NCBI GenBank assembly: GCA_012033595.1 | Contig: JAAUQL010000017.1 | Location: 1-64,000, forward strand | Reading direction: 5' to 3' | DNA: 64,000 bases | Source: Cyclobacteriaceae bacterium | Lineage (GTDB): Bacteria > Bacteroidota > Bacteroidia > Cytophagales > Cyclobacteriaceae | In this document: piece by piece, positions 30,232 to 57,506 of the stretch | Numbering within the stretch: position 1 is the stretch's first letter | How the letters are laid out: every line of letters begins with the position of its first letter | The notes under the pieces: generated by a model | Told to the model about the DNA's origin: nothing | The model's database searches: none | What the model saw: only the letters and a program-made list of their open reading frames with translations | Position numbers and translations under genes: made by a program

Positions 30232-30236
30232 TTTTT

Positions 30237-34699: not shown

Positions 34700-34711
34700 A
34701 AATTTCGTTGA

Positions 34712-36462: not shown

Positions 36463-36464
36463 GC

Positions 36465-36881: not shown

Positions 36882-36977
36882 CAGCTCTTGGTTTTGTTGC
36901 AATGGTAACTAAAAAACAGTCCTTAGGCTGCCTTTTTGCCAAATCGGATTTCGCTTCCATCCATCCGTCGGCCGGTC

Positions 36978-37397
36978 TTATTTTTGTATAAATACCCTGA
37001 TTTCACATTGGGCAATCAAATTATGTTGATTGTCTTTTATTTTCCCTTCAAATATCTGAAAATCCAGGACTTCATTGGTGTTCACCACTTTCGTGGAAAG
37101 CGTTTCGCCCACCTCGGGGAATTTTGATATTTTCAAATTTTTGATGGAAGTGATAAATCCCAGCGGCACCGCCTCACCTTTTTGTTTATAACTGTATCCT
37201 GCAAAAAAAGCCGCCGATTGTGCTATGTTTTCCATCATGCCTCCACTGGTAAAATATCCATCAGACACCAATACATTGTCTTCTTTGGGTGATAAAACCG
37301 TCATCACCGAAGTATCATCTATCGCCTGTATGGCATCGATCATTACAAATGGCTTCCGTTGCGGTATATAATCTGTCACATCCATTGCGATCATCAT
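36978..37397 (-). CDS. hotdog-fold dehydratase-like protein (ApeP-like)
   Basis: A 139-residue hotdog protein. The opening YIPQRKPFVMIDAI matches the FabZ/FabA-type N-terminus; the middle (SGGMMENIAQSAAFFAGY) has the Glu-bearing helix of dehydratases; strands GFITSIKNLKISKFPEVGETLS follow. The usual catalytic His loop HFPGxPxxPG is replaced by a shorter VSDGYFTSGG, so it may work together with the hotdog protein at 29857, as paired dehydratases do in aryl polyene synthesis. Start at the tandem ATGs three bases from the acyltransferase stop. Confidence 0.8.
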   Translation of the reverse strand: MMIAMDVTDYIPQRKPFVMIDAIQAIDDTSVMTVLSPKEDNVLVSDGYFTSGGMMENIAQSAAFFAGYSYKQKGEAVPLGFITSIKNLKISKFPEVGETLSTKVVNTNEVLDFQIFEGKIKDNQHNLIAQCEIRVFIQK

Positions 37398-37399
37398 CT

Positions 37400-38290: not shown

Positions 38291-38535
38291 TACTGGTTTA
38301 CACGTTTGATGACGTAATTGTAAAAATCTTCGAAGGTCACGATGGTTTTAAAGTCCTCGGTGGTCACTTTGAAACCAAAATTGTTTTCAATTTCCACCAC
38401 CAGATCAACATAGTCGAGGCTATCGAGGTTCAATGTGCTTTTCAACTCCGCTTCCGGGCTTATATTCTCTTCTTTCACCTCAAATTCATCGACCAAAAAC
38501 TCATTGATCTTTTCAATTATCTCCTTATCACTCAT
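38290..38535 (-). CDS. acyl carrier protein
   Basis: An 81-residue ACP with the phosphopantetheine attachment Ser in LNLDSLDYVDLVVEIENNFG. The DSLD signature and acidic helices distinguish it from the DSID-type ACPs at 34441 and 49963, so the cluster has two ACP kinds that may serve different ketosynthases, for example polyene versus resorcinol chains. It lies between a KS and the acyltransferase in the leftward operon. Confidence 0.93.
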   Translation of the reverse strand: MSDKEIIEKINEFLVDEFEVKEENISPEAELKSTLNLDSLDYVDLVVEIENNFGFKVTTEDFKTIVTFEDFYNYVIKRVNQ

Positions 38536-38552
38536 TGCTTTATTGATATTGC

Positions 38553-39775
38553 TTATTTAAGTTTCCTGACAATCAAGGAAGAATTTGTGCCGCCAAATCC
38601 AAATGAATTGGATAAAAACACGTCAAATTGCTTTTTAATGGTCTCTTGTGGCAAATTTAACTCTTTTATTTTTTCATCTGGATTTTCCAAATTTAAATTT
38701 TGGGCAATAAAGTCATTTTGCATCATCAGCATGGAATACACCACTTCACTGGCTCCGGCCATCCACATTTCATGTCCGGTCATCGACTTGGTAGAGCTGA
38801 TAAAAGGCTTTACTTCGCCAAAAACCTGCGATATTGCCATGCCTTCCTGAACATCGCCCATTGGGGTAGAGGTGGCGTGGGCATTGATATAATCAATATC
38901 TTTGAGCGACAGCCCTGACTCGCTGATTGCCATTTCCAGCGATCGCTTTGGCCCCTCCACGTTGGGTTGCGAAATGTGCTCTCCATTCGAAGAAAAACCA
39001 TATCCCAGAATTTCGGCCAGTATGGGTGCACCTCGTTCCATGGCCGATTCGTAGCTTTCCAGTATGACGGTGGCCGCCCCGCCACCGGGTACCAGGCCAT
39101 CCCGGTCGCGGTCAAACGGCCTGGAAGCGCTTGCAGGTTCGTTTTCGCGAAGCGAAAATGTCCCTAATCCGTCGAAGCTGCCCATAGATTCGAAATTCAC
39201 TTCCTGGGCACCTCCGCAATGATACGTTTTTGATAACCGTTTTTGATCATTACATAGCCCAGGCCAATGGCATGAGATCCGCTGGCACAGGCTGCACTCA
39301 CGGTAAAATTGATGCCCCGTAGTCTGAATATGGTAGACAAATTCATGGTAACTGTGGAATTCATCGATTGAAAAATCGAACCGCTACCAATCAGGGTTGT
39401 GTCTTTTTTAACCCGGAGCGTATCCACGGCATCGATGGCTGGCTTGGCGGAGCTGTCGTTGCCAAAAATGATCCCCATCTCATTGGCATCTAAAAAATCC
39501 TGGGAAATACGCGCATTTTCCAACGCTTCCACGGTGCTTAGATAGGCAAATTCGCCTTGTTGTGGCAAACCTACACGCGCTCTGCGACCTATCTGGCCTT
39601 TGAGGTCTGGTGTGGGCAAGATGGCCGTGAGCGCAGACCTAAAGCCCAGCTCCCTTCTGACGGGGTCCAAACCAATGCCTGACTTACCTGCGTACAGCGA
39701 TTGTCTCACTTCATCGAGGTTGATGCCAAGACACGAATAAATGCCCATTCCGGTAATTACTACTCTGTGTTGCAT
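38553..39775 (-). CDS. beta-ketoacyl-ACP synthase (FabB/F-like), frameshifted
   Basis: A 407-residue condensing enzyme after joining ORFs 39197-39775 and 38553-39200. The N-terminal half starts MQHRVVITGMGIYSCLG and carries the Cys in SAACASGSHAIGLGYV; the C-terminal half has INAHATSTPMGD, SSTKSMTGHEMWMAGASE and NSFGFGGTNSSLI. The break near 39212 follows KRIIA; one extra G gives GGAQEVNFESMGSFDGLG, exactly the FabB/F path, so one base is probably missing. Full set of catalytic residues. Nine bases from the ketoreductase gene. Confidence 0.9.
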
Positions 39776-39784
39776 AATCCAATA

Positions 39785-40507
39785 TTATAATCCGCCGCTT
39801 ATGGTCACCACTTCTCCCGTAATGTAGGAGGATTCGGCAGATGCCAAAAAATTCACCAAAGCTGCGACTTCCTCTGGTGTACCGAACCTTTTTACGGGAA
39901 TGATGGATTTAAACTCTTTCTCGTCTATGCCTTCGGTCATGTCCGTTTTGATAAAACCCGGCGCCACGGCATTTACCGTGATGCCGCGCCGCCCTACTTC
40001 CTGGGCCAGTGCTTTGGTGGCACCTATCACCGCGGCTTTGGCTGCGGAATAGTTCGTCTGACCTGGCAGACCCTTGATGCCCGAAAGCGAAACCATATTA
40101 ATGATCCTGCCCCACTTAGCCGAAATCATGCCCGGCAAGACTGCTTTGGTCACATTGTAAAAACCCCCAACACTAATATTCAATACTTCATCCCACTCCG
40201 AATCTTTCATCCACATCATCAGATTATCCATCCGCACGCCCGCATTGTTTACCAACACGGCGATTTGATCGTTGGGATGCTCCTCTATCCAGTTGGTGAT
40301 GCTCGCCTGACAGGTTTCTCTGTTGGCTACATCAAAACAAAGCAGCCCGGCCACGGCCCCGGTTTCTTCCACAAGTTTTCGAGTCTCTTCGGCAGCTTCC
40401 TGATTTTTGGTATAATTGATCAAAATTCCATAGCCATGCGCTGCAAGTTTGCAACAAACTGCGCGGCCTATTCCTCTCGAACCTCCTGTCACCAAGGCAT
40501 ATTTCAT
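39785..40507 (-). CDS. 3-oxoacyl-ACP reductase (FabG-like, SDR family)
   Basis: A 240-residue short-chain dehydrogenase. NADP-binding TGGSRGIGRAV, the NNAG motif (LVNNAGVRMDNLM), catalytic Ser in NMVSLSGIKG and the YxxxK motif in TNYSAAKAAVIG are all intact; the end has the usual SYITGEVVTISGGL. It should reduce 3-oxoacyl-ACP to the hydroxyl form in each polyene cycle. Located between the ammonia-lyase and the KS gene in the leftward operon. Confidence 0.93.
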   Translation of the reverse strand: MKYALVTGGSRGIGRAVCCKLAAHGYGILINYTKNQEAAEETRKLVEETGAVAGLLCFDVANRETCQASITNWIEEHPNDQIAVLVNNAGVRMDNLMMWMKDSEWDEVLNISVGGFYNVTKAVLPGMISAKWGRIINMVSLSGIKGLPGQTNYSAAKAAVIGATKALAQEVGRRGITVNAVAPGFIKTDMTEGIDEKEFKSIIPVKRFGTPEEVAALVNFLASAESSYITGEVVTISGGL

Positions 40508-40565
40508 GATATCTATTTAATTTTTCTACTTTAATATAAGCCAAAGCACTTCACAATCGCAATAC

Positions 40566-42098
40566 CTAGTCAGGGTCGTTGTTCAAGATATAATCTTTCA
40601 CTTTTTGCAGGTCTTTGTAAATCGGATAATCCTGATCGAACCTGGCAATGATTTCCCTCAATTTGCGATAGTTGGCTTTTGAAGCCGGGGCCAAACCGGC
40701 AAATTTATCGAGGCAATCTACCGCCTGTAAGATGGTAATCAACTCTATGGAGACCACCTGGTAGCTGTTTTCGATTACTTTTTTGGTGATGAGGGCGGCA
40801 TTGGTGCCCATGCTCACAATGTCCTGGTTGTCGTTGTTGTTGGGTATGGAATGCACATACATCGGGTTGGAAAGCATCTGGTTTTCGGCCGTGGTAGAGG
40901 TGGCTGTAAACTGCACCCCCTGCATCCCAAAATTCAATCCCAGCCTGCCCAGATTCACAAATGGGGGCAACACCCCGTTTAGGTTTGGGTTGAGCAGGAA
41001 ATTGAGCTGACGCTCGGCCAACATCGATAATTTGGTGATGGCTATTTTGAGCTTGTCCATTTCGAATGACACATAGTCGCCGTGGAAGTTGCCGCCATGC
41101 AATACGTTTTTGTTTTTCACATCCACGATCGGATTGTCGTTGGCCGAGTTCACTTCTTCAAACATCAACTCCTGGCATTGATTCACCGTTTCCAGAATGA
41201 TGCCGACGATCTGTGGCACACAGCGGACAGAATAATATTCCTGCACCTTGTCCTGGATGACGGTTTCCTGCGAAAAATCCTTGTACAGGTGTTGATCCCG
41301 CTTTCTTATAAATTTACTCCCGGCAATATTTTTTCTGATCATAGCCGCAACCTCTTGCTGCCCTTTGTGCAGTTTAGATTTGTTCAGCTCTTCCGAGAAG
41401 TAGTCATCATACACTTCCATCAGTTCGCTTATCATCGACGAAGCGGCAACAGACCATTTTACCAGTCGCCTGGCATATATCGAATTGATGATGCCTATCC
41501 CCGTCATGATGCTGGTGCCATTGATGATGGCCAATCCCTCACGGATTTTTATTTCTATCGGTTGTATGTTCAGTTTGTTGAAGACCACGGCAGTGCTTTG
41601 CCTTTTCCCTTCATAATCGACTTCACCTTCGCCGATAAGCACCAATGCCAAATGGGCCAATTGTACCAGATCGCCACTGGCTCCTACCCCGCCATGCTCA
41701 TAGATCAATGGATATACGTGATGGTTGATCAGTTGCCTCAGCGTTTCTATCACTGACTTGTGCACTCCCGAGTATCCCAACGCCAAAGTATTGAGCCTGG
41801 CCAACATGGCAGATCTCACATAGATGGGCTCCAGGCAATTGCCCATACCAGAGGCATGGCTCCTGATGAGGTTGGTTTGCAAGGTATAGCGGTCGGCATC
41901 TTCTATCTGATAAGGCGCCATGGGTCCAAAACCAGTATTGATACCATAAATCACTTTGTTCTTGGTGAATTCTGATAAAAATTCAAAGCTGGCATCAACG
42001 CGCCGTTTGAGCGATTCGGAGATATTTATTGGATTGTCTTCAAAAATAATTGATGAAAAGCCATCTAGTCCCAGTTTTTCTTCTCCAAATTCAATCAT
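40566..42098 (-). CDS. aromatic amino acid ammonia-lyase (probable tyrosine ammonia-lyase)
   Basis: A 510-residue MIO-dependent lyase that eliminates ammonia from an aromatic amino acid. The self-forming cofactor triad Ala140-Ser141-Gly142 is in GVGASGDLVQLAHLAL; the catalytic Tyr loop is VIYGINTGFGPMAPYQ; EEVNSANDNPIVD and the C-terminal NNDNQDIVSMG are also conserved. The selectivity pair is Ser-His (RSHASGMG), as in histidine lyases, so sequence alone leaves Tyr versus His open. The setting at the head of a flexirubin operon, and the known tyrosine lyase of flexirubin-making Flavobacterium, favour tyrosine, giving p-coumarate as starter. First gene of the operon, 45 bases from a -7 box. 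Confidence 0.88.
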   Translation of the reverse strand: MIEFGEEKLGLDGFSSIIFEDNPINISESLKRRVDASFEFLSEFTKNKVIYGINTGFGPMAPYQIEDADRYTLQTNLIRSHASGMGNCLEPIYVRSAMLARLNTLALGYSGVHKSVIETLRQLINHHVYPLIYEHGGVGASGDLVQLAHLALVLIGEGEVDYEGKRQSTAVVFNKLNIQPIEIKIREGLAIINGTSIMTGIGIINSIYARRLVKWSVAASSMISELMEVYDDYFSEELNKSKLHKGQQEVAAMIRKNIAGSKFIRKRDQHLYKDFSQETVIQDKVQEYYSVRCVPQIVGIILETVNQCQELMFEEVNSANDNPIVDVKNKNVLHGGNFHGDYVSFEMDKLKIAITKLSMLAERQLNFLLNPNLNGVLPPFVNLGRLGLNFGMQGVQFTATSTTAENQMLSNPMYVHSIPNNNDNQDIVSMGTNAALITKKVIENSYQVVSIELITILQAVDCLDKFAGLAPASKANYRKLREIIARFDQDYPIYKDLQKVKDYILNNDPD

Positions 42099-42630
42099 TA
42101 CTCAAAAAATTCACAGGCTTTAATATTAATACAATCAAACGCCAAATATATTAAATAATCAACTGTGTCATTTATGTAAAGTAACATTTATGGTATAATT
42201 AAGCGCATGTTTTTACAATATCCATTGCAAAAATCAGTTGATGGAAAATTTCCCTTATGGATTATTCTAGTGGCAAATGATGAAGATTGACATTTAAAGC
42301 TATTTTCATAGATGATCTATTCCACTGTGTTTTGGCGAACCTCGATCTTATGCCATGTAATTATTGACAGCATTTTTTGAATTTAATAGTGCATTTCGGT
42401 GGCGCTGGAGGCTTGGGCTTTGGTGTTTGGCAGGAGCATCTGCGCTATCTCGCCCTCCGGGCCAAATCAATAATCGATTACAAAAATGAAAATGTTAATA
42501 CGATCGGGAAGATGGTATTTTGATGATTAACCACTCTGACACTTTGTATTTTGGAAAAAATCCTGGTGATTATGATTCTAATTGTATGCAAATACACCTG
42601 CACGCCATATTTCCGGTTATATTAGCGAGC
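42099..42630. other. divergent control region of the pigment cluster
   Basis: About 530 bases between the leftward lyase operon and the rightward FAD oxidoreductase operon, without a supported gene. It should hold divergent promoters and any operator. The only clear motif I see is the minus-strand -7 box; the plus side has two near misses (TATTTTG near 42516 and 42547). No regulator gene lies beside it. Confidence 0.4.
42143..42150 (-). promoter_or_regulatory. -7 promoter box for ammonia-lyase operon
   Basis: Minus-strand TATATTTG fits TAnnTTTG exactly and lies 45 bases before the lyase start. The -33 element is unclear. Confidence 0.45.
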
Positions 42631-44326
42631 ATGCAAACACTAGAGGAATTCGACACCATTATAGTCGGCTCGGGAGCCGGGGGTTTATCAGCGGCCATTT
42701 GCCTGGCACGCGCCGGCCAACGCGTGGTAGTTTTGGAACAACACGATGTGCCTGGCGGCTGGTGTCATAGCTTTTATCTGCATGGGTACAGGTTTTCACC
42801 GGGAGTACACTACATAGGCCAACTTGGTGAGGGCGAATCTACCCGACAGCTTTATGAAGGCCTTGGTGTAGCCAATGATTTGGTTTTTTCAGGATGAACC
42901 CTGAAGCCTTCGAGCATTGCCATATTGGCGCAACGCATTTCGATTTTCCGGCCAGCTCAGACGAGCTCACCAAACGCCTGTCGGCCCGGTTTCCTAATGA
43001 AAGAAAAAACATTGTCGCCTACCTCGCCATGGTAAAAAGGGTGAGCGGGCAATTGCAACTAATCGCCAAAATGAAGGGCTTCTGGGACAACATTACCATT
43101 GTGTGGCGTACCCGGCACATGGGCAAATATGGTCTTTTCAGCCTCAGGCGTGTCATCGATTGGTACATTAAAGACCCGCTACTGAAGCGCATACTCAATG
43201 TGCAATGCGGCGATCATGGTTTGCCCCCGGGCAAGGTCAGCTTTCCGTTCCATTGTGCCGTGGTTGATCACTACGCTTGTGGTGGATACTACCCCATGGG
43301 GGGCAGTGCCGCCATCGTAAAAGCCATGACCACGGCAATTAAAAAATATGACGGTGATGTTCGCACCAGACAAAAGGTGAAAAAATTCCTAATAGAAAAT
43401 GGAAAGAGAAAACGTGCGATTGGAGTAGAAATGGAAAATGGCGAGCAGATTTTGCAAAAAGGATCATATCCAATGCCGACCCAGACAAGACCTACCTCGA
43501 GATGGTCGGCACAGCGCACCTAAGTACTGGCCTGCGAAAAAAGCTGCAAAACACCAAATACTCGTGTACTTCGCTGATGCTGTTTCTCACTGTCGATATG
43601 GATATGCGCCAAGCCGGTATGGATTCGGGCAACATCTGGATTTATCCCGATGAGGATATGGATGTTTTTTATGATGAAATGATGCAGGAAGACCTGCTTG
43701 CTTCCTCCTATTTTAAGGGCATGTTTGTGAGCTGCACCACCCTGAAAGACCCAAGCAGCTACGACGGAAAACACCATTGCCTGGAGGCCATTACCTACAT
43801 CCATTACGATGCCTTTGCACGGTTTGAAAATGAAAGCCTGGAGCGTTCGCAAGCGTATTTGCAATATAAGAATCTGCTCATGCAAAAAATGATCGTTACC
43901 CTCGAACAAAAAATACCGAACATCAGCCGGCACATTGTACATCAATCGCTGGGCACGCCCATTACCAATGAACACTATATCAACTCTACCAGGGGCTGTG
44001 TGTATGGCACAGAAAAAACATTGAAACAAATAGGCCCCTTTGCCTTTCAGTCTAAAAGTGAAATCGATAACCTCTACCTGTGCGGAGCCAGCATATTGTC
44101 GCACGGTGTGGCTGGTGCCAGTATTTCCGGAGTGCAAACTGCCGCCAAAATTCTGCATTGCACAGCAGAGGATTTGATCAAAACCGATCCCACCCAGCAA
44201 CTCCAAATTTTCGAAGCGGAAGATAGCAGCCAATACCCCGATTGGCTCAAAAGGAAAATCGGCCTGCGCAAAGCAAAATCCGGATTTGGTGAAAACATAG
44301 CAGAAACGGCACAAAATAATCCTTAA
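42631..44326 (+). CDS. FAD-dependent oxidoreductase (phytoene desaturase/retinol saturase-like), two frameshifts
   Basis: A flavoprotein of about 565 residues once three ORFs are joined. The Rossmann motif VGSGAGGLSAAICLARAGQRVVVLEQ and VPGGWCHSFYLHGYRFSPG are typical of the CrtI/retinol saturase class; near the C-terminus NLYLCGASILSHGVAGASISG is the FAD-binding closing motif. Breaks near 42888 (GVANDLVF, missing T in a T run; true path FFRMNPEAF) and near 43452 (ENGEQI, missing T; true path FAKRIISNADPDKTYLEM). It is not a flavin halogenase: the family motifs differ. It may oxidise or isomerise double bonds of the polyene; its substrate is unproven. Rightward operon leader; ATG at MQTLEEFDT chosen by family N-terminus. 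Confidence 0.85.
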
Positions 44327-44488
44327 ACCCGGGCAAAAGCACAGTAAATCGCGCTCGCAGGACTCCTATTTTTGGTTTGTTTGCAATAAAACATATTGGA
44401 CAAATCCCTATATTGCGCCCTGAATTGAAGGGCCATTTTGGAGGGTCGCAAAATCATAAAAAAAGCATATTGTTGAAAAAAGCAGGGT

Positions 44489-45387
44489 ATGAAAAAAAAA
44501 TTCTTGCAATCTACTATTCACAAACCGGCCAGCTTAAGGAAATTATGGAGGACTTTCTCCAGCCTTTCCATCAGGCAGGCTGTCACGTGGAAACGGTGAG
44601 CATAGAAATGCAGAAGCCTTACCCTTTTCCCTGGACAAGCGAGAGATTTTTTGATGCCATGCCCGAAAGCGTACTGGGCATACCGCAGCCCCTTCAGGCA
44701 TTTGAACTGCAAGAAAACAAATATGATCTGATCATTTTGGGCTATCAGCCCTGGTATCTGTCGCCAAGTATTCCCACCACCGCTTTGCTCAAAGACCCCG
44801 GTTTTAAGGCCATTTTGAAAGACACCCCGGTGGTAACAGTGATCGGGGGTCGAAATATGTGGATTAATTCCCAGGAAAAAGTGAAGAGATTATTAAATGA
44901 AGCAAAAGCCATATTGGTGGGCAATGTGATCAGGATGGATAAAAATGAAAACCTGACCAGCGTAGTGACCATATTGTACTGGATGCTTGGAGGCAAAAAA
45001 GACCGATACCTGGGTATATTTCCCAAACCAGGTGTTGCTGACGCAGACATCTACAGTACTCATATATATGGCAAACTGGTATTGCAGGCGCTCCAAGCCA
45101 ACGATTATAGCGGATTACAAAACAATATAATAGCTGCCGGAGGCGCTTTTGTACAATGGAACCTTATGTTTATAGAGCTGAGGGCCAAAATACTATTTAA
45201 AGTATGGGCCTCTGCCATTATCAAAAAAAAGAACAGGACTTTGTGGCTTAAGTTTTTTAAATATTATTTAATGATTGCACTTTTCGTTGCTTCACCCATA
45301 GTTTTGCTTTTTTATATGATACTGGTCAGGCCTTTCAGGCTCAAGGCCGAAAAGAAACAAAAACAATTATTTTTAGATATTAAATAG
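44489..45387 (+). CDS. darA: DarA, dialkylresorcinol-forming enzyme (flavodoxin-like aromatase)
   Basis: DarA of dialkylresorcinol biosynthesis, about 299 residues. The N-terminus KKILAIYYSQTGQLKEIM is a flavodoxin-like FMN-binding strand-loop; FDLIILGYQPWYLSPSIP-type and VVTVIGGRNMWINSQEK blocks follow; a C-terminal membrane helix (about 265-288, YLMIALFVASPIVLLFYMILV) is present. In characterised systems DarA oxidises the cyclohexanedione made by DarB to the resorcinol. The natural ATG (atg then nine A) is out of frame with the ORF; ten A would give MKKKILAIYY, so one A is probably lost and the track start (upstream TTG) is an artefact. Directly before darB. Confidence 0.88.
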
Positions 45388-45398
45388 ATAAGAAGCAG

Positions 45399-46541
45399 AT
45401 GGCTGAAGTTTATATTACAAAAACAGCGAATTTTTTTCCAAATAGCCCGGTTTCAAACGATGAAATGGAGGATTATTTGGGTATGATCGATGGCAAACCT
45501 TCTAAATCGAGAAGGATAGTATTGCGGAACAACGGTATCGTAAACCGGTATTACGCCATCGACAAAGCCGGCAATGTAACCCACAGCAATGCCGAGATGT
45601 CGGCGCAGGCTTTGCGCAAGCTGTTCGACAACGATCCGGAACAGATCAAATCCATAGAGCTATTGAGCTGTGGCACTTCATCTGCCGATCAGTTGATGCC
45701 CTCCCATGCCGTTATGGTTCATGGGTTACTACCGGAGATGGATTCTGTGGAGGTAGTGTCGCCAGCGGGGGTATGCTGCGCGGGCATGCATTCGCTCAAA
45801 TACGCCTACATGGCCGTGAAGCTGGGCGATGTAAACAATGCAGTGGCCACCGGCTCTGAATTGTTTGCACCACTGCTCAGGGCCAATACGTTTGAGGAAG
45901 AAGCCCAAAAACTCAAAAGCCTTCAGGAAAACCCATACATCGGCTTCGAAAAAGAATTTCTGCGTTGGATGCTGTCAGATGGCGCCGGGGCGCTTTACCT
46001 GTCGAACACGAAAAACGAGAACGAACTCAACCTGAAAATAGACTGGATAGAAGGCGTATCGTATGCCAATAAAATAGAACCCTGTATGTACATGGGTTGC
46101 GAGAAGCTTGAAAATGGATCACTTAAGAGCTTTAAGACCATGACCCCCGAAGAACTGATCGGGGGCTCAGCCCTGAGCATTAAGCAGGATGTGAAGCTGC
46201 TCAGCCAGCACATAGTTTCTTTCGGCTATGACAAACTCAAAGATATATTTGACAAAAAAGGAATAACCATAGAAGAAGTTGACCACTTCCTGCCGCATAT
46301 TTCCAGCAATTTTTTCAGAAGCAAAATTGCCGATATCCTGGTGGAGCATGGCATGGGCGTACCCGAAGAAAAGTGGTTTATCAACCTGTACACCGTGGGC
46401 AACGTAGGTGCCGCTTCCATCTACCTGATGATTGACGAACTGTACCACAGCGGTAAGTTGAAAAAAGGCGATAAAATTTTGCTTGTTGTACCAGAAAGCT
46501 CAAGATTTTCCTACTCTTTCGGACTACTGACAGTTTGCTAA
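45399..46541 (+). CDS. darB: DarB, FabH-like ketosynthase of dialkylresorcinol synthesis
   Basis: DarB, 380 residues, a ketosynthase III relative. In known systems it joins two fatty-acid-derived thioesters by Claisen condensation and Michael addition to a cyclohexanedione that DarA aromatises. The chain opens AEVYITKTANFFPNSPVSNDEMEDYLG; the catalytic Cys lies in SPAGVCCAGMHSLKYA; the His region is VDHFLPHISSNFFR and the Asn region INLYTVGNVGAASIYLMID. This DarB-DarA pair is the diagnostic for dialkylresorcinol and with the aryl polyene genes for flexirubin-like esters. Eleven bases after darA and one base before the next gene. Confidence 0.93.
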   Translation: MAEVYITKTANFFPNSPVSNDEMEDYLGMIDGKPSKSRRIVLRNNGIVNRYYAIDKAGNVTHSNAEMSAQALRKLFDNDPEQIKSIELLSCGTSSADQLMPSHAVMVHGLLPEMDSVEVVSPAGVCCAGMHSLKYAYMAVKLGDVNNAVATGSELFAPLLRANTFEEEAQKLKSLQENPYIGFEKEFLRWMLSDGAGALYLSNTKNENELNLKIDWIEGVSYANKIEPCMYMGCEKLENGSLKSFKTMTPEELIGGSALSIKQDVKLLSQHIVSFGYDKLKDIFDKKGITIEEVDHFLPHISSNFFRSKIADILVEHGMGVPEEKWFINLYTVGNVGAASIYLMIDELYHSGKLKKGDKILLVVPESSRFSYSFGLLTVC

Positions 46542-46542
46542 A

Positions 46543-46938
46543 ATGAAAAAAGAAGACCTTCCTCAGGACAAAGGAGCGATAAAAGATCTGTGCTATGTAG
46601 TAGATGAACGTGGCAACTACACCACCGGACTGAGCGATGGTTGGGAAATAAAAGTGAAAGCCCTGGATGTGGCGTGGGACGATATCAAAGAAAAAACCGC
46701 TGCGGCATTGGCAGAAGTAAAAAGCGGCAAAGCCAGCCCCATAAAATACTACATGGAACGCAGCATCATGGATGTCGGCATCGTGGCGGCTTATACCGGA
46801 TTCTGGAGATGGCAGGTAAAAAGGCACCTCAAACCCGGTGTTTTCAAAAATTTGAATGATAAAAAATTAAAAAAATACGCTGATCTGTTTGAAATTGAAT
46901 TGGAGGAATTGAAAAAGATGGGAGAATATGGAGCTTAG
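46543..46938 (+). CDS. conserved hypothetical protein of DAR cluster
   Basis: A 131-residue cytosolic-looking protein without signal or membrane segment. I do not recognise a domain. Composition is Lys/Glu-rich and mostly helical, with aromatic clusters YYMERSIMDVGIVAAYTGFWRWQVKRHLKPGVF that could form a docking surface. It sits one base after darB and overlaps the BtrH-like gene by eleven bases, so it is tightly coupled to the resorcinol enzymes. A partner or adaptor for acyl transfer is my guess only. Confidence 0.7.
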   Translation: MKKEDLPQDKGAIKDLCYVVDERGNYTTGLSDGWEIKVKALDVAWDDIKEKTAAALAEVKSGKASPIKYYMERSIMDVGIVAAYTGFWRWQVKRHLKPGVFKNLNDKKLKKYADLFEIELEELKKMGEYGA

Positions 46939-47938
46939 TTTCAATCACGTTCAGTCGGCGCACTGCGAAAATGGGGTAACTAGAAATTTATTGAACCATA
47001 TCGGAATTGAGCAGATGACAGAACCCCTGGCATTTGGCATTGGCTCCGGCTTGTTCTTCATCTATATTCCTTTCGTCAAAATCAACAACGGCCCTGCCAT
47101 TTCGTACCGCACCATGCCCGGCATGATATTCAACCGAGCCTGCAAGTCGCTCCAGGTACCTCTGCTCAGAAAAAAATTCAACTCAGAAGAGGCCGCAAAA
47201 GCTTATTTGGATGAGGCCATAGCCAGTGGCACTCCGGTCGGCTGCCAGGTGGGGGTGTACTATTTGCCCTATTTTCCCAGGGAATACCGTTTCCACTTCA
47301 ATGCACATAACCTGGTGATCTATGGCAAAGAAAACGATGAGTACCTGGTGAGCGACCCCGTAATGGAACACGTGACTCGCCTCAACGCTTTCGACCTCAA
47401 CCGGGTGCGGTTTTCAAAAGGATTTCTTGCCCCAAAAGGGCAATTGTATTATCCGAAAGAGCACAAAACCGTGAGTGACGACCTGGTCAGGAAGGCCATT
47501 CTCACCGGCATGAAAAGGAACATCAGGCATATGTTGCACGCCCATGTACCGATACTCGGAGTCGATGGCATCAGATTCACGGCCCACAGGATCAGGAAAT
47601 GGAAAAGCAAACTCGGCGACAAAGCGGCGCGCAGTTATCTCGCCCAACTGGTACGGATGCAAGAAGAAATAGGTACCGGAGGGGGCGGATTTAGGTTCAT
47701 CTATGCGGCCTTTCTGCAAGAGTCTTCCGCATATTTTCCAGAGAAAGGCCTCGTTGGCATTTCCGAACAATTTACCAAATCGGGAGATCTTTGGCGAAGC
47801 GTGGCCGTGCAGGCAGCAGGCATCTACAAAGGCCGGCTTGGAGGCCAGCAAGACTACGACCACCTCAGTCAGATGATGATGGAAATAGCAGATATAGAAG
47901 GCAATGCATTTAGGAACTTATCAAAAACATTGAAGTAA
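46928..47938 (+). CDS. BtrH-like acyltransferase (BtrH_N + DUF4872)
   Basis: A 336-residue protein like BtrH of butirosin synthesis, which moves an acyl group from ACP onto an aminoglycoside through a Cys nucleophile. The N-terminal papain-like/BtrH_N domain has Cys13 in VQSAHCENGVTRNLL, the catalytic His region FNAHNLVIYGKENDEYLVSDPV, and LAFGIGSGLFFIYIP; the C-terminal half (about 175-336) fits DUF4872. Its place beside darAB and the ABC exporter makes it a strong candidate for esterifying the polyene acyl-ACP with the resorcinol hydroxyl. That is inference; the LpxL-like and C45 proteins are rivals. Confidence 0.85.
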   Translation: MELSFNHVQSAHCENGVTRNLLNHIGIEQMTEPLAFGIGSGLFFIYIPFVKINNGPAISYRTMPGMIFNRACKSLQVPLLRKKFNSEEAAKAYLDEAIASGTPVGCQVGVYYLPYFPREYRFHFNAHNLVIYGKENDEYLVSDPVMEHVTRLNAFDLNRVRFSKGFLAPKGQLYYPKEHKTVSDDLVRKAILTGMKRNIRHMLHAHVPILGVDGIRFTAHRIRKWKSKLGDKAARSYLAQLVRMQEEIGTGGGGFRFIYAAFLQESSAYFPEKGLVGISEQFTKSGDLWRSVAVQAAGIYKGRLGGQQDYDHLSQMMMEIADIEGNAFRNLSKTLK

Positions 47939-47941
47939 TTC

Positions 47942-48681
47942 ATGACAAATCAGGCCGTCGTTGTTAAAGATCTGCATTTCAAATACGCCACTGCGCCATC
48001 ACTTTTTGATGGATTTGAGATACAAATAAACGAGGGCCAACGCTTTGGCATTTTTGGCCCCAACGGGGCAGGAAAAACCACACTCATGTCCATCATCACG
48101 GGCATCCTGCCTTTGGTTGACGGTAGCATCACAATTTTTGATCACGATCTGAAACAGGAAAAGAAAAAGGCCCAATCGCTCATCGGTTTTGTTCCACAGG
48201 ATTTTTCGTTTTACGATGTGCTCACGCCCATGGAAAACCTGGAGTTTTTTGGTATTTGGAGCAATGTGGACAAAAAGAAAATCAACGCCCTCTCCAAAGA
48301 CATATTGCAGGTGCTTGGCCTGTACGAGGTGAGAAACAAAAATGTGAGAAGATTTCGGGAGGGATGAAAAGGAGGGTCAATCTGGCCATAGGTGTGATCC
48401 ACCATCCCAAAATTCTCTTCCTCGACGAACCTACCACCGGGGTGGACGTGCAAAGTCGGCATGCGATTTTGGAATTTTTACTAAAGCTCAATCGTGAAGG
48501 GACTACCATCGTGTATACGTCGCACCATTTACGCGAGGCAGAGGATCTGTGCGACCATGTCGCCATGATCGACGCAGGAAAAATCATATCAAACGGAAAA
48601 TCGTCCGATTTAATCGACCGGCATGCAGGCGGTCTCGAAGGATTGTATATGGAACTGACAGGAAAAGCATACAGGGATTGA
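47942..48681 (+). CDS. ABC transporter ATP-binding protein, frameshifted
   Basis: A 246-residue ABC-2-type ATPase after joining ORFs 47942-48367 and the frame running to 48681. Walker A GPNGAGKTTL, Q-loop FVPQDFSFYDVLTPMENLEFFG, signature ISGGMKRRVNLA and Walker B LFLDEPTTGVD with the switch His TSHH are all visible. The break near 48356 follows VRNKNVR; one A gives KISGGMKRRV, so the signature itself straddles the site. With the permease behind it, it likely exports the pigment or a lipid precursor. Four bases after the BtrH-like gene. Confidence 0.88.
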
Positions 48682-48683
48682 TT

Positions 48684-49957
48684 ATGATAAAACTTTGGGC
48701 TTGTTTAAAAAAGGACATCAGAATCATTTCCCGCGACAAAGTAGGCCTGGCGCTGCTATTTCTTATGCCCATCATACTGGTAGTGGTGATCACCAGTGTA
48801 CAAAACAGCGCCTTTGAAGTCGTAAACGATAACAAAATAAAATTGCTGCTCAGCAACCACGACGAAGGCCGATTGGGTCAGGCATTGGCCAAAGCCATAG
48901 AACAGATGGGACTGTTTGAAATGCACCAAGCAAAGACGGACGAAAAAGATTTTTCTGATGCTTTGTTTGCGCACGACGCCATGGTGGGCATACTTATCCC
49001 TTCCGGCTTCTCGCAAAAAGAACAAACTCAGGCTGACCATCTGGTAAACTTAGCCCTGGCCGACCTTGGCCTGAACGAAAGGCCGACGCAGGCAAATGGT
49101 GTCGATTCGGGCGCAATTACCATTACTACCATCCGGTGCTGCAAAAATCTTTTCGTTTTTCCATCAACGGCGTCATCACCACCGGACTGCAAGGCCTCAA
49201 AAGCAAATTGATGATCGAGACCTTATACAGCTCACTGGGTCAGGATTCCATTTCTGCTGACGTCGAAAACTCCCTTTTAGACAGCCAATCGGGTATACAT
49301 GAAGTGACCCTCACCAAGAGCGGCTATAGTTTTTTGCCCAATGCGTCGCAGCACAACGTACCCGCCTGGACTATCTTTGCTTTGTTTTTTATGGTCATTT
49401 CCCTGGGGTCGAACATGGTAAAGGAAAAACAAGAAGGTAGCTTCGTACGAATCAAGACCTTGCCTACCTCCTATTTCATGGCACTGCTATCGAAGCAAAT
49501 CACCTACATGGTAGTGGCCATCGTACAGGTATTTGTCATATTTTCCATTGGCATTTGGGTTTTTCCCAGCCTCGATTTGCCAGCGCTCAATATGCCCGGA
49601 AGCATGTGGGCGCTCACCCTGGTGACGGTTTTCACCGCTTTGTCGGCCATCAGCTATGCTATTTTTATTGGCGTATTTGCCAATACCCAGGAGCAAGCCA
49701 ATGGAATTGGCGCTGTTTCAGTAGTCATTTTGGCGGCCATTGGAGGCATTATGGTTCCCGACTTTGTGATGCCCTCGTTTATTCAAAAAATTATGGTCGT
49801 TTCTCCCTTGCACTGGTGTTTAGAAGCTTATTATGAACTTTTTTTGGAAGGTGGGGCGATGAGCGATATTTATATTAGTATTGTACCTTTACTTTTCTTC
49901 TCGCTCATATTGCAGAGCTTTGCCATAGTGGGTTTGAAGAGAAAAAATTTGATTTAA
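48684..49957 (+). CDS. ABC-2 type permease, frameshifted
   Basis: A 424-residue ABC-2 permease with an N-terminal helix (IKLWACLKKDIRIISRDKVGLALLFLMPIILVVVI), a large extracytoplasmic loop, and five more helices after residue 220 (TIFALFFMVISLGSNMVKEKQEGSFVRIKTLP and GIGAVSVVILAAIGGIMVPDFVMP). The break near 49114 after GVDSG is restored by one base (next NYHYYHPVLQKSF). Partner of the preceding ATPase; the only permease of the cluster, so it may act as a homodimer. No MMPL-type exporter, usual in aryl polyene clusters, was found in the window. Confidence 0.87.
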
Positions 49958-49962
49958 CAATT

Positions 49963-50226
49963 ATGGATAGAGAGATTTTAGTAAAAGATTTGAAAAAGCA
50001 CATCATCACCTACCTCAACCTGCTGGACATGACTCCCGAAGACCTCAAAAATGATGTGCCACTTTTTGGCGATGAATTGGGATTGGACTCCATAGATTCG
50101 GTAGAGCTGATCGTACTTTTAGAAAGAGAATATGGCATTAAAATAGAAGATCCGAAAGAAGGCCGTAAGGTACTCGTCGATGTAAATACCATAGCAGATT
50201 ACATTATTGCAAAAACCCCGGCCTGA
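49963..50226 (+). CDS. acyl carrier protein
   Basis: An 87-residue ACP with the phosphopantetheine Ser in GDELGLDSIDSVELIVLLEREYG, very like the frameshifted ACP at 34441 (same LFGDxLGLDSID block and similar length). It begins five bases after the permease and three before the ketosynthase. It heads the second ACP-KS-CLF cassette. Confidence 0.93.
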   Translation: MDREILVKDLKKHIITYLNLLDMTPEDLKNDVPLFGDELGLDSIDSVELIVLLEREYGIKIEDPKEGRKVLVDVNTIADYIIAKTPA

Positions 50227-50229
50227 TAG

Positions 50230-51419
50230 ATGCCCAGCGTAATGATTACCGGTATAGGGGCGATTTCGCCCTTGGGCAACACTGTTGATGAACACAGGGA
50301 AGCTTTTGCGCAGGGCAAATCCGGCCTATCCAGACTCGAAATGTTCACTACCAGGTATGCCGATCTTCTGTATTTTGGTGAAATAAAAACGTCGAGTGAT
50401 GCGCTGCGCTCCATACTTGGCGTAAGCGAAAAAAATGTAACGCGCAATTCGCTCCTGGCCTTGCACGCCATGCAGGAAGCGCTGCAAATGAGTGGCCTGG
50501 AACCACAGCAGATAGCTGCATCTGGCACCGCACTAATCGGCGCCAACACCACTGCGGGCATTTGCCTTACCGATGAGCTGTACCATGATGCCAACCGCGA
50601 CACCAACCCTTCGGCCTATATCAACGACTACGATGCCGGCTCGATAAATATATTCCTGCAAAGGATATTCAACATCAAAGGTGTGGTGAATACCATCAAT
50701 ACGGCCTGTTCGTCGTCGGCAAATGCCATTGCCTATGGCACGCGGCTCATCAAATCCGGAATGGCAGACAGGGCCATAGTGGGCGGGGTAGATAGCCTTG
50801 CGAAGTTTACCATCAATGGCTTCAATGCGCTGGGAATACTATCATCGGAAAAATGCAGACCATTTGATAAAAACAGAAACGGACTTAATCTTGGCGAAGG
50901 TGCAGCTTTTTTGATTTTGGAAAGGGAAGACCTGACCGGCAATAAAAAAATACTGGCAGAGGTGACGGGTTACGCAAACACCAACGATGCCTACCATCCT
51001 TCCTCGCTATCGCCGCAAGGTAATGGCCCCTACCTGGCTATGAAAACAGCCCTGGAAACCGCAGGCCTAAAACCATACGATATAGGCTATATCAACACGC
51101 ACGGTACCGGTACCGAAAACAACGATGAAGTAGAAGCCATAGCCATGGGAAGACTGTTTGAAAAAATACCAGCTTTTGGCTCAAGTAAATCGAGCATTGG
51201 CCATACCCTGGGCGCTGCCGGAGCCATAGAAGCGGTGGTTTCTGTGCTCAACCTGATGTACCAGGAAATCTTCCCAAGCCTAAACTTCGACACGCCCATG
51301 TATGAGCAGGCACCTGCACCGGCTACCCACCACCAAAAAGTGGAAATAGCGCATATCATGTCCAATTCATTTGGCTTTGGCGCAATTGCAGTTCATTAAT
51401 TATCTCTAAACCAGCCTAG
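50230..51419 (+). CDS. beta-ketoacyl-ACP synthase, aryl polyene type, frameshifted at 3' end
   Basis: A 396-residue condensing enzyme. The catalytic Cys is in NTACSSSANAIAYG, the His in INTHGTGTENNDE and the Lys/His in SSKSSIGHTLGAAGAIE. The first His motif has Thr-His where others have Ala-His. The track stops at FGFGAIAVH; adding one G near 51380 gives FGFGGNCSSLIISKPA and a stop at 51419, directly before the CLF start, so I extend the gene there. Duplicate of the KS at 33233; together with the ACP before it and the CLF behind it makes the second cassette. Confidence 0.9.
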
Positions 51420-52457
51420 ATGAACATAATACAATCTACGTGCATTTCGGCGCAAAACACCTTTTTGACCCCTGAACCAGCCTTCGGGCACCTCCCCGCA
51501 GGCAGCAAGCTGGAAGCCAAAGAACCTCCGTATGAAAATATACCCCGGAGCCTCTTGCGCCGCATGGGCAAAGCAGTGCGCATGGGGGTGGGCGCAGCCC
51601 TGCCTTTGATAGAAAAAAACATTACGCCAAACGGTATAATAATAGGCACGGGCAATGGTGGCATGGAAGACTGCATACGGTTTCTCAACCAGATCATCGA
51701 CTACGACGAAGGCACCCTCACTCCTACCAACTTCGTACAAAGCACCGCCAACGCCATAGCCGCCCAGGCAGGTCTGATGAGCGGCAACCTCGGCTATAAT
51801 ATCACCCATGTGCACAGAGGCCTGGCTTTTGAAAATGCTGTTATCGACGCACTGATGCTCCTCAAAGAAAATCCTAAAGCCAACTACCTCCTTGGCGGTA
51901 TCGATGAAATTTCCACCTATAATTTCAACATCGACCAACTTGGCGGCTGGGTAAAAGAAGAGTTTCCTGCCACGCAGGATATATACGAGACCACCAGCAA
52001 TGGCAGCCTGGCCGGAGAAGGTGCTGTTGTGTTTGTGGTGGGCAATGCGCCAGATAAACCAGACATCAAAGCTTGCCAAACCTTGCATAGCACCCATAGT
52101 CAGGAGGTGATGCAATCGCTTGGCGCAATGGTCGAGCTGCATTTGCCCGGTGGATTTGCCGATGTGGATGTGCTGATCAGCGGTGAAAATGGTGATGGGC
52201 GTTTCAAACATTTTTATACTGATTGCGAAGCGCTATTGACCAACAACACCGCCATTGCCAGGTTCAAGCATCTGTCGGGAGAGTTCCCCAGTGCATCGGC
52301 ATTTGGGTTGTGGCTGTCAGGCGAAATACTAAAACATCAAACCATACCTGTAAATGCGCTAAAGAACCCCGGATCAACATCCACATTCAAAAATGTCTTG
52401 ATTTACAATAATTTTCGTGGCCAACAGCATGGATTTATGCTGGTGGGGTTGGGATAA
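51420..52457 (+). CDS. chain-length-factor-like ketosynthase without active-site Cys
   Basis: A 345-residue intact paralogue of the protein at 32212. Conserved blocks: IPRSLLRRMGKAVRMGVGAA, GTGNGGMEDCIRFLNQ, LTPTNFVQSTANAIAAQ in place of the KS nucleophile elbow, LLGGIDEISTYN, and FKHLSGEFPSASAFG. No catalytic Cys or HGTGT His. It directly follows the catalytic KS with no gap, as expected for a heterodimer that sets chain length. ApeC in aryl polyene systems is the nearest described analogue. The ORF ends the rightward operon. Confidence 0.87.
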   Translation: MNIIQSTCISAQNTFLTPEPAFGHLPAGSKLEAKEPPYENIPRSLLRRMGKAVRMGVGAALPLIEKNITPNGIIIGTGNGGMEDCIRFLNQIIDYDEGTLTPTNFVQSTANAIAAQAGLMSGNLGYNITHVHRGLAFENAVIDALMLLKENPKANYLLGGIDEISTYNFNIDQLGGWVKEEFPATQDIYETTSNGSLAGEGAVVFVVGNAPDKPDIKACQTLHSTHSQEVMQSLGAMVELHLPGGFADVDVLISGENGDGRFKHFYTDCEALLTNNTAIARFKHLSGEFPSASAFGLWLSGEILKHQTIPVNALKNPGSTSTFKNVLIYNNFRGQQHGFMLVGLG

Positions 52458-54157: not shown

Positions 54158-55456
54158 TTAATTAAGATGTCGAAGATCAGAAAAATTTACCGGTTTTCGA
54201 ATTCCTTCTTTAAAAATTATTTTGTGTAGTTCGTCCATCGCCATCATTTCGATCACAGGCCTTACACGTAGTTTAGATCCGAATTCTTCTTTGAGCATGT
54301 CTAGTTCCACGACCGTGATTTCGTTGATTTTCACTACGATTTCGTCATTGCCCAGGGCATCTGTACGGAGTTGGATTTGGTATGCTTTTATCCAACTAAA
54401 GGCATTGAGCACATCAAAAATAATTGGCGGGTACAAGGTGGTGCCTTTGTATTTGATCATCTGATTTTTGCGTCCTATCACCGGACCCAGCCTAAAAGTA
54501 TTTCGTCCGCAGCTGCACTTGTCGCTATGTCTGGCGCAAATATCACCTGTCCTGAATCGCACCAATGGCATAGCTTCCAACCCAAGTGTGGTGATGACCA
54601 ATTCGCCGGGAGTGCCATCTGCTACCTGACGACCCTGCTCATCAATTATTTCTGCTATGATGAGGTCAGGTTGGTGATGCCCTCCCCTGCCGGCTTCACA
54701 TTCGGTAAAGGCTGTGGCCATTTCTGAAGAGGCATAGGTAGAATACAGGTCTATATCCAGGCTTTGTTTTATTCTACGGCCCAGGGAATTTAGCTCAAAA
54801 TCAGGACGTCTGATTGGCTCGCCGATGCAAACAGCACGTTTAACAGAGATATTTTTCAGGTCAATCCCGTTTTTCTCAGCATATTCTATCATTTTCACGA
54901 GAAAAGAAGGCACTACGATGAGTGCTGTGGGTTTCATGTTCAATATGGTATGCCACTGCAGCGGAATAGCTCCCGAGCCTACCCGCACCACGCCGGCACC
55001 CATGAGTCTGATACCCAGAAAATACGCCAATCCGGCCATAAACTGCTTGTTGATGGTGGTGGTCAGTTGAAAAATATCTTCACCTGAGCCTCCGGCAATA
55101 CGTAGCGATCGGGCCTCATTGTATGCCAGACGCTCCAGATCCTTGTCTGTTTGGGGAATAGTGACAGGCTGTCCCTGGGTACCTGATGTGGCAGCATAGT
55201 CTATGATTTTGTCCTTGCCCACACAATAAAATTCATGCTGATGTTTTTGCAGATCATCCTTGGTGGTAAAGGGCAAGCTGGCCAAATCTTCGATGCTTTG
55301 AATATCTTCTACGTTGATGTGATGCTCCCGAAATACAGCCTGGTAGTAGCCCGATTTTTCGGCTACGTATTTTAGCTGTTCCGTTAGTGCCCTATGCTGG
55401 TATGCTGCTATTTTTTCCGGGCTTTGCTTTTCCAAACTTTCCATGGACTCGTTCAT
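54158..55456 (-). CDS. PaaK-like acyl-adenylate ligase (phenylacetate-CoA ligase family)
   Basis: A 432-residue AMP-forming ligase. Core motifs are YAATSGTQGQPVTIPQTD (phosphate-binding loop, replacing TSGTTGxP), YSTYASSEMATAFTEC, GELVITTLGLEAMPLVRFRTGD and the C-terminal KIIFKEGIRKP where the catalytic Lys is expected. It is shorter than 4-coumarate:CoA ligase and fits the PaaK group. In this operon the substrate is probably p-coumarate from the ammonia-lyase, activated for transfer to ACP or CoA; that is inference. Start at MNESMESLEKQ, overlapping the AcpS stop by four bases; the longer track start reads through AcpS. Confidence 0.85.
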   Translation of the reverse strand: MNESMESLEKQSPEKIAAYQHRALTEQLKYVAEKSGYYQAVFREHHINVEDIQSIEDLASLPFTTKDDLQKHQHEFYCVGKDKIIDYAATSGTQGQPVTIPQTDKDLERLAYNEARSLRIAGGSGEDIFQLTTTINKQFMAGLAYFLGIRLMGAGVVRVGSGAIPLQWHTILNMKPTALIVVPSFLVKMIEYAEKNGIDLKNISVKRAVCIGEPIRRPDFELNSLGRRIKQSLDIDLYSTYASSEMATAFTECEAGRGGHHQPDLIIAEIIDEQGRQVADGTPGELVITTLGLEAMPLVRFRTGDICARHSDKCSCGRNTFRLGPVIGRKNQMIKYKGTTLYPPIIFDVLNAFSWIKAYQIQLRTDALGNDEIVVKINEITVVELDMLKEEFGSKLRVRPVIEMMAMDELHKIIFKEGIRKPVNFSDLRHLN

Positions 55457-55827
55457 ATTTTTTCCAACACTGCCATGGCTACTGCATAAGAGTGGCAATG
55501 CGAAATGGACAAATGTATTTTTAGGGTTGCCAATTGCGGGTACCGCGCTAATACTTCGGGTCCCCACCTATATTCAGGTTTGCCCTTATCATCATTTATC
55601 ACTTCTATTTTATTGATATCCACCTGACCATACCAGCCATCGCCTACCGCCTTGGCAAGTGCTTCTTTTGCGGCAAATCGCCCGGCAAAATGTTCAGGGG
55701 GTTTGGCCTTGCTATGGCAATAGTTAATTTCATCTATAGAAAAGACCTTTTCCAAAAAGCCCGGTCTTTCCAAGGACTTAGTCAGCCTGGCCACTTCTAC
55801 TATATCCACCCCGGTGCCTGCTATCAT
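55453..55827 (-). CDS. acpS: holo-ACP synthase (4-phosphopantetheinyl transferase)
   Basis: A 124-residue AcpS-type phosphopantetheinyl transferase that converts apo-ACP to holo-ACP using CoA. Signature TGVDIVEVARL at the N-terminus with the metal Asp, FAGRFAAKEALAKAVG with the Glu and Lys, and LSISHCHSYAVAMAV at the C-terminus. In a cluster with three ACPs it is presumably dedicated to them, though it could be the only AcpS of the cell. Overlaps the C45-like gene upstream and the ligase downstream (both ATGA). Confidence 0.93.
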   Translation of the reverse strand: MIAGTGVDIVEVARLTKSLERPGFLEKVFSIDEINYCHSKAKPPEHFAGRFAAKEALAKAVGDGWYGQVDINKIEVINDDKGKPEYRWGPEVLARYPQLATLKIHLSISHCHSYAVAMAVLEKI

Positions 55828-57506
55828 TGTTTCAGCATTTCCTGGCACGTACCGAGCCGTATTTCCATATGACGTTGCTCACTTGCTTTGGCAATCACTT
55901 TAGAGAGGCCTTTGTGGTACATATTTATGGCCTCTTCATATTGCTTTCGATCCATATAATAATCGCCCAAGTGATAGTAGGTGAGGTAGCTCTCGGGATT
56001 ACTTGCCATAAAAATTGAAATGTCATCATCAGACAAATTCTGCATCCTGCCCACACTATCCGGATAGGTCATTTTACTCACCATCTGCTGAAAGGTGCGA
56101 TATTTTTGAAATTCTTCTGAATACAAAAAAGGATCGGCTGCTATAGTCATAGAATCGATATGAACCGCAAGGTTGGGCGCTACCGGCCATGAGGAGTGAA
56201 ATATTTGATCGAGATCGTAACAAACAAAGGCGCCGAGTTGGTAAGGCGATGCAGAAACCCATACCCTGCGCTGATGCGGTTGGAAGATGACCGAATGATG
56301 TGCGATCAGTTGATTGATGGTCTTTTCATTGGCCATTCCCACATTGAGGCCATCCAGACCAAGCTGATCGCGCAAAATAGTAGCTGCGATGTTGGGTGTG
56401 ATGGTCTCCTCCTGTGCGAGCAACTGTGCCACCCGCTGATGGCGATATTGCGAAACACCCTCGGCCATATACGCCACATTATTTTGCTCATCTTTCAGCT
56501 CGTCGCTTTGGTAATGGTTGGTGACGATCATCTGATCCTTTCCATTACGATACAGCACAGTTTTGCCTTGCGATTTTTCAATCAACCCAAAATCATTTTC
56601 TTTGGCAGAACCGATCAGGAAGCTTTCGGCCACGAACGAATCGTACGATGCGGCAATGTTGTAGGCTTCACGAATGGTGGAAGCATATTGCAAAATATGT
56701 CGCCCTATTATCGATACTGGGGTTTTGGCCTTGAACATTACGCCTGATTTGGCAGAATTCAGCGTGACGGTAAGCCCGTGCTCATTCATGCCCGAAACCA
56801 CGCCACTAAATGCCGCCCAGGTCACGGACATAAAGGCATGGCCACTGTCTGGTTTTATAAATGCCACAATTTTATCTTTTGAAAATTGCTCCCCAAAGTA
56901 GAAGTCGAAGTTGCGGGCAATGAGCATATCTGGAGTGGAATCGAGGTCCTGGTTTTTCAATGCAAAAGAGGTACAACCCACCATGTTGAGGTTTTGAAGG
57001 GCGTGGCCGATGTCATGGGCGGCGTGGTAGTTGAGTGACCGGTGGAATTTGGGTGCGATAAAATCATATTCGTCGGACATAAAAAAAGACGCTCCGTATA
57101 TTTCCTTTGCAAATTCATCTGGAATATCCACTTCCAGGTCGCGGTTGAACCACGCTACTAGGTATTTCAAAAAATTGAAATACATTCCTGAGGGCACACG
57201 TTTGCGGATTTCAGTCACAAAGGCGCGCTCTTTGTCTGCATTGAGTGCCTGGGTGAGGCTGCCAAATGCCAGGCCACGATCCAGCGCCCCGCCCTCAAGG
57301 TACAATTCCCATAAGCCATATTTATTTTTGCGTAGCCAGTTGTTGCCTACCCAGGACAAATCGTCAGACTGGTGCACATCACTGAAACCAGTAATTTTTG
57401 ACTTATCGATTTTTGGAGGGAACACCAGCACCTTGATGAAGGCATAAACAAAAAATGCCAGCAAAAGTGAAAGTATGGCGAGCAGTATTTTATATCGCTT
57501 TTTCAT
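55824..57506 (-). CDS. C45-family autoproteolytic acyltransferase-like protein
   Basis: A 560-residue envelope protein with an N-terminal hydrophobic anchor (about 6-28) and an Ntn-hydrolase fold of the C45/acyl-CoA:6-APA acyltransferase type. The presumed nucleophile is Cys178 in NMVGCTSFALKN, followed by the typical ARNFDFYFG and MNEHGLTVTLNSAKSG blocks; self-cleavage before this Cys would create the active enzyme. A short TPR-like helical pair (YYHLGDYYMDRKQYEEAINMYHKG) ends the chain. Known C45 enzymes swap or hydrolyse acyl amides; here an acyl ester transfer to the pigment is plausible. First gene of the satellite operon with AcpS and the ligase. Confidence 0.82.
   Translation of the reverse strand: MKKRYKILLAILSLLLAFFVYAFIKVLVFPPKIDKSKITGFSDVHQSDDLSWVGNNWLRKNKYGLWELYLEGGALDRGLAFGSLTQALNADKERAFVTEIRKRVPSGMYFNFLKYLVAWFNRDLEVDIPDEFAKEIYGASFFMSDEYDFIAPKFHRSLNYHAAHDIGHALQNLNMVGCTSFALKNQDLDSTPDMLIARNFDFYFGEQFSKDKIVAFIKPDSGHAFMSVTWAAFSGVVSGMNEHGLTVTLNSAKSGVMFKAKTPVSIIGRHILQYASTIREAYNIAASYDSFVAESFLIGSAKENDFGLIEKSQGKTVLYRNGKDQMIVTNHYQSDELKDEQNNVAYMAEGVSQYRHQRVAQLLAQEETITPNIAATILRDQLGLDGLNVGMANEKTINQLIAHHSVIFQPHQRRVWVSASPYQLGAFVCYDLDQIFHSSWPVAPNLAVHIDSMTIAADPFLYSEEFQKYRTFQQMVSKMTYPDSVGRMQNLSDDDISIFMASNPESYLTYYHLGDYYMDRKQYEEAINMYHKGLSKVIAKASEQRHMEIRLGTCQEMLKQ

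Follow-up and report, generated by a model that had tools for sequence, protein, structure and literature searches.

A BtrH-related acyltransferase encoded in the dar operon of a Cyclobacteriaceae bacterium as candidate for the enzyme joining the two halves of flexirubin

The window analyzed here, a stretch of 64,000 nucleotides of contig JAAUQL010000017.1 from a Cyclobacteriaceae bacterium, contains a dar operon on the forward strand with the gene order darA-darB-darG-darH-ABC ATPase-ABC permease-ACP-ketosynthase-KS-like protein. The dialkylresorcinol aromatase gene darA (44482-45387) was assigned by a profile score of 470.8 bits and by synteny, and its start was set by alignment to orthologues. 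It is followed by the dialkylresorcinol ketosynthase gene darB (45399-46541; NF053539, 611.6 bits with a cut-off of 550) and by darG (46543-46938), which encodes a protein of 131 amino acids matching NF053545, a model named "flexirubin biosynthesis protein DarG", with 176.1 bits (cut-off 170). The next gene is darH (46928-47938), an intact frame of 336 codons annotated as BtrH-related acyltransferase with the domains BtrH_N and DUF4872. According to the preliminary description darH is coupled to darB and to a small gene, and the coordinates bear this out, since darB ends at 46541 and darG, starting at 46543, runs 11 bp into darH. Among related loci, an overlap of 11 bp is likewise the most frequent arrangement (42 of 76). 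Downstream of darH lie an ABC transporter ATPase (47942-48681; PF00005 and synteny), which is split over two frames, a frame-broken ABC-2 permease (48549-49957; PF01061/PF12698), an acyl carrier protein (ACP; 49963-50226) assigned by position and synteny, the counterpart of which in Azoarcus is darC (PMC3949708), and finally a ketosynthase and a KS-like protein of the Ketoacyl-synt_2 type (50230-52457; PF00109/PF02801 and PF13723).

The aryl-polyene cluster for flexirubin is located on the reverse strand (28677-42098) and includes a ketoreductase, ketosynthases, dehydratases, LolA and GT2 as well as the tyrosine ammonia-lyase FlxA (40566-42098), a thioesterase-like protein (36465-36902) and an LpxL-like acyltransferase (37400-38290; PF03279). 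Also on the reverse strand are FlxY, which is of the 4-coumarate:CoA ligase type (54158-55567; NF053551, 629.7 bits), and a C45 autoproteolytic acyltransferase/hydrolase (55824-57506; NF040521, 173.4 bits). Frame splits were found at 32212-33524, 38553-39775, 42520-44326, and 47942-49957, affecting ketosynthases, a CrtI-like oxidoreductase, the ABC ATPase, and the permease. Most of the junctions are close to homopolymer runs, which suggests that the splits are assembly indels and not signs of decay. A SusD-like gene outside of the cluster (22405-23756) may be split as well.

In Pfam searches DarH matches BtrH_N (PF14399) with residues 12-144 (E 3.8e-50, 170 bits, gathering cut-off 29.7) and DUF4872 (PF16169) with residues 156-331 (E 7.4e-55, 185.8 bits, gathering cut-off 28). 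Against the NCBIfam equivalog model NF053550, "BtrH-related acyltransferase DarH", it scores 464.5 bits over model positions 2-324 of 325, far above the curated cut-off of 300 bits, whereas DarH paralogs elsewhere reach 152-186 bits and stay under it. Thus, the protein matches this family over its whole length and has the same operon neighbors, with "acyltransferase" being the name of the model. The genome as a whole contains no further BtrH_N gene. A tree of 31 BtrH-family proteins places the DarH sequences in a single clade on a long stem (support 100/99), separate from the stand-alone BtrH proteins. Since NCBIfam names already exist for both DarH and DarG, darH is not a new kind of gene; the family has previously been recognized by curators and the idea of an acyltransferase is not fresh. 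Four homologs under the cut-off (L024-L027) were rejected as DarH, as they are stand-alone BtrH proteins outside of dar operons. Stand-alone BtrH_N/DUF4872 proteins with the motif FNGQHCETTATG also occur in Bacteroidota outside of any dar operon (L095, L096, L097). Another BtrH_N protein (L112) is encoded on an Acinetobacter plasmid, flanked by a TetR regulator on one side and two PaaI thioesterases on the other, and matching BtrH_N genes are present on 45 Acinetobacter plasmid records.

The preliminary description had pointed out an N-terminal Cys13 within SAHCENG and a later His as the residues kept in DarH. Both hold up in the alignment: Cys13, His127, and Asp143 are invariant among 53 DarH proteins, and when distant BtrH proteins are aligned, Cys and His remain invariant, the later His being His127, and an Asp is found in the D143 column or one column beside it. 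The AlphaFold (AF2) model of DarH has a mean pLDDT of 90.5 and places Cys13 at the N-terminus of helix 13-24, His127 as first residue of strand 127-135, and Asp143 directly after strand 138-142. By conservation and model, Cys13 (codon 46964-46966, forward strand like the following two) is therefore proposed as nucleophile forming the acyl-enzyme, His127 (47306-47308) as catalytic base, and Asp143 (47354-47356) as third member of the triad. A PDB search with the sequence gave no useful match. Foldseek matched the model over its whole length to CcbD/CtaG-like acyltransferase folds with E-values of 1e-9 to 6e-7 and TM-scores of 0.60-0.76, and the best PDB neighbors are AziU3, CtaG, and CcbD, followed by a C39-like peptidase. 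Judged from the predicted structure and the conserved residues, DarH is a papain-like cysteine enzyme of the C39/BtrH branch with a Cys13-His127-Asp143 triad. DarH could also be a hydrolytic peptidase, but its fold neighbors are mostly carrier-protein acyltransferases.

Three characterized systems are helpful for the comparison. BtrH of butirosin biosynthesis, which catalyzes ACP-dependent acyl transfer (PMC10318531), shares the N-terminal PF14399 domain with its Cys and His; its acceptor is an aminoglycoside amine, whereas that of DarH would be a phenol. CcbD/LmbD of lincosamide biosynthesis matches the DarH fold with an E-value of about 1e-8 and a TM-score of about 0.62. CcbD works by a ping-pong mechanism, in which the carrier-bound acyl group is transferred to the Cys and then attacked by the acceptor amine, and it accepts fatty acyl groups (PMC12945683). 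Its structure in the PDB was solved together with its carrier protein. The third catalytic residue of CcbD is a Glu, its product is an amide, and CcbD and DarH are 12-14% identical. CtaG of Ruminiclostridium cellulolyticum, with 12-13% identity, matches the DarH fold at an E-value of about 1e-8 and reaches TM-scores of up to 0.71. Its PDB entries include the variants C11A, H128A, and D144N, and compared by residue number C11/H128/D144 of CtaG stand against C13/H127/D143 of DarH, with a His-Asp spacing of 16 in both. CtaG catalyzes amide formation in closthioamide synthesis. As the documented chemistry of the BtrH family is the formation of amides, an aryl ester made by DarH is an extension of it.

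A finished polyenoyl chain would arrive at DarH as an acyl carrier protein thioester. Cys13, activated by His127 and Asp143, would then take over the chain as an acyl-enzyme, for which the triad is predicted from conservation and model and the chemistry is borrowed from CcbD. Finally, a hydroxyl group of the 2,5-dialkylresorcinol produced by DarA and DarB would attack the acyl-enzyme, giving the aryl ester. We consider it likely that DarH transfers the polyenoyl group from the ACP via Cys13 to the resorcinol hydroxyl and in this way forms the ester of flexirubin.

An enzyme that joins both halves is expected where resorcinol and polyene are both made, and not where one of them is made alone, which is the basis of a presence test. 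For this, 297 genomes drawn across the Bacteroidota were surveyed. DarH (matches over its cut-off), DarG, and DarA were found in the identical 23 genomes, belonging to 10 genera (Fisher's exact test for DarH and DarA 8e-35, a value obtained with genomes that are related and hence not independent). The polyene KS-like marker PF13723 is present in all 23 of them and additionally, over its cut-off, in G118, G242, and G238, which contain polyene clusters and have neither DarA nor DarG nor DarH. DarH is therefore present in all sampled genomes with dialkylresorcinol (DAR) and polyene genes (23/23) and absent from the three genomes with a polyene cluster only. DarB occurs in the same 23 genomes and in G238. 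The latter is not counted as an exception, since its DarB adjoins a TetR-type gene in a genome that lacks DarA. Besides DarA and DarB, DAR is tracked only by DarG, by DarH, and by the ABC transporter. The ABC permease was tested in nine genomes; the family was found in five DAR genomes and was absent from three polyene-only genomes. The probable cargo of this co-conserved transporter is the flexirubin product or the resorcinol. As DAR without polyene was not found in any of the 297 Bacteroidota genomes, the pattern by itself ties DarH to DAR and not specifically to the ester.

The surroundings of darH are similarly conserved. At 80 DarH loci of public Bacteroidota genomes DarG was found at 78, DarB at 77, the ABC ATPase at 73, and DarA at 72. 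DarG and DarH are adjacent on the same strand at all loci showing both (77/77), and DarAB is located apart from DarG-DarH in four cases (G017, L129, L147, L193). Since DarG-DarH is never split in these data and DarAB can sit elsewhere, DarG-DarH looks like a module distinct from DarAB. In all seven genomes in which DarG-DarH sits apart from DarAB or has no recognized DarA beside it, DarA was nevertheless found, and the polyene marker was detected in the six that were checked, in one of them under the family cut-off. The proposal of DarH as candidate ester-forming enzyme is supported, having withstood all tests run here that could have refuted it. DarH occurs only together with DAR genes, and each genome of this kind that was checked also has the polyene marker; DarH is moreover absent from polyene clusters without DarA, and its fold and triad match those of enzymes of the BtrH, CcbD, and CtaG kind. 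DarG itself gave no Pfam family over cut-off. In the fold comparison its C-terminal half resembles a helix-turn-helix (HTH) of the Cro/C1 type, preceded by an N-terminal β-hairpin and a long helix, and DarG may be a structural partner, a carrier-protein adaptor or a regulator.

Several ketosynthases related to DarB were noticed during the survey. The plasmid records searched yielded only orphan DarB and unrelated BtrH proteins. Orphan DarB-like ketosynthases without DarA lie beside a TetR-family regulator (L088, L109, L110), two of them on Bacteroidales plasmids. Other DarB-like ketosynthases are 616-645 amino acids long (L098, L099, L100, L108), and two of them, L098 and L100, have a fused haem-oxygenase-like iron enzyme domain (PF14518) and are followed by a gene for a DUF6999 protein. 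A Pseudoalteromonas plasmid encodes a ketosynthase as a separate protein, with an iron-containing redox enzyme and a hypothetical protein as its neighbors. The DarB-like ketosynthases of the L098 type possibly belong to an uncharacterized lipid pathway.

Two other acyltransferases of the window, which the preliminary description had named as competitors of DarH, were checked against the same distribution. The LpxL-like protein is a genuine member of its acyltransferase family (PF03279), it is encoded inside the polyene cluster, and it was found in most of the flexirubin genomes tested, so it could join polyene and resorcinol while DarH does something else. However, homologs are present in the three polyene clusters without DarA (G118, G242, and G238), and a search of G099, a genome with DarA, DarB, DarG, and DarH together with a polyene cluster, detected none. 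It is more likely that the LpxL-like acyltransferase catalyzes a step that all these polyenes share, and its role as ester-forming enzyme appears quite improbable. C45 enzymes are likewise capable of acyl transfer and the C45 gene is close to flxY, but here, too, homologs occur in the same three DAR-free polyene clusters, while G099 has only more distant C45 proteins outside of the cluster, which makes the formation of the flexirubin ester by the C45 protein very unlikely. Since both proteins occur in DAR-free polyene clusters, neither tracks the ester, and both were rejected as the ester enzyme for not tracking DAR.

No enzyme is established for the joining of the flexirubin halves in the literature searched, and the one proposal found there names the ligase-like FlxW (PMC3992019), which would make the ester from free polyene acid. 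The thioesterase-like protein at 36465-36902 could free such an acid. No gene corresponding to FlxW was identified in the cluster here, and in a search with PF00501 the sole AMP-binding gene found in the cluster was flxY or its homolog, both here and in the DAR-containing relatives G226, G254, and G099; FlxY homologs are also present in DAR-free polyene clusters. A second AMP ligase as ester enzyme was considered as well and dropped, as none was found in the cluster. Judged from the AMP-binding genes of these four clusters, it is highly improbable that an FlxW-type ligase forms the ester.

A further alternative is that DarH acts on the resorcinol branch by loading or editing acyl groups for DarB or by hydrolyzing stalled thioesters. 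The gene sits in the darAB operon alongside an ACP and a ketosynthase, and a papain fold with Cys, His, and Asp is also capable of hydrolysis. However, DarA and DarB were by themselves sufficient for resorcinol formation upon heterologous expression (PMC3992019), and therefore the ring can be made without DarH. Moreover, in the literature producers of free DAR are described with darABC and regulators only, namely Pseudomonas chlororaphis with darABC, darS, and darR (PMC6403133), and Photorhabdus with DarABC (PMC4414361), and DarG-DarH can sit apart from darAB. A function of DarH in the resorcinol branch is thus unlikely.

An operon with the same gene order, darA-darB-conserved hypothetical-BtrH-like-ABC, is described for Azoarcus sp. 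BH72 (PMC3949708). The BtrH-like gene darE (azo0290) was listed there in 2014 as "BtrH-like peptidase", and the names darG and darH designate other genes in that paper (PMC3949708). The Azoarcus pigment consists of a polyene and a DAR with a proposed ester, and its polyene is derived from 3-hydroxybenzoate (PMC3949708), so that the polyene starter differs from that of the flexirubin cluster here. The link between DarH and the ester draws on the protein fold, on DarAB being sufficient for the resorcinol, and on this kind of literature from other phyla. DarH is the best candidate for the enzyme joining the two halves of flexirubin, and most likely it is this enzyme. In the literature on BtrH and DarH no knock-out, biochemistry or other test of darH was found. 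Taking DarG into account, we lean slightly towards a BtrH/CcbD-type acyltransferase of papain fold that makes an aryl ester together with DarG as an obligate small Cro/C1 HTH-like partner, in which case the pair would be a portable module for joining dialkylresorcinols with aryl-polyenes of various origins.

Flexirubins are the chemotaxonomic marker pigments of the Bacteroidota. If DarH is the joining enzyme, the flexirubin pathway would be closed and the KOH pigment test would gain one diagnostic gene pair, darG-darH. The amide-forming family would furthermore gain an ester-forming branch, which would be useful for coupling polyenes to phenols.
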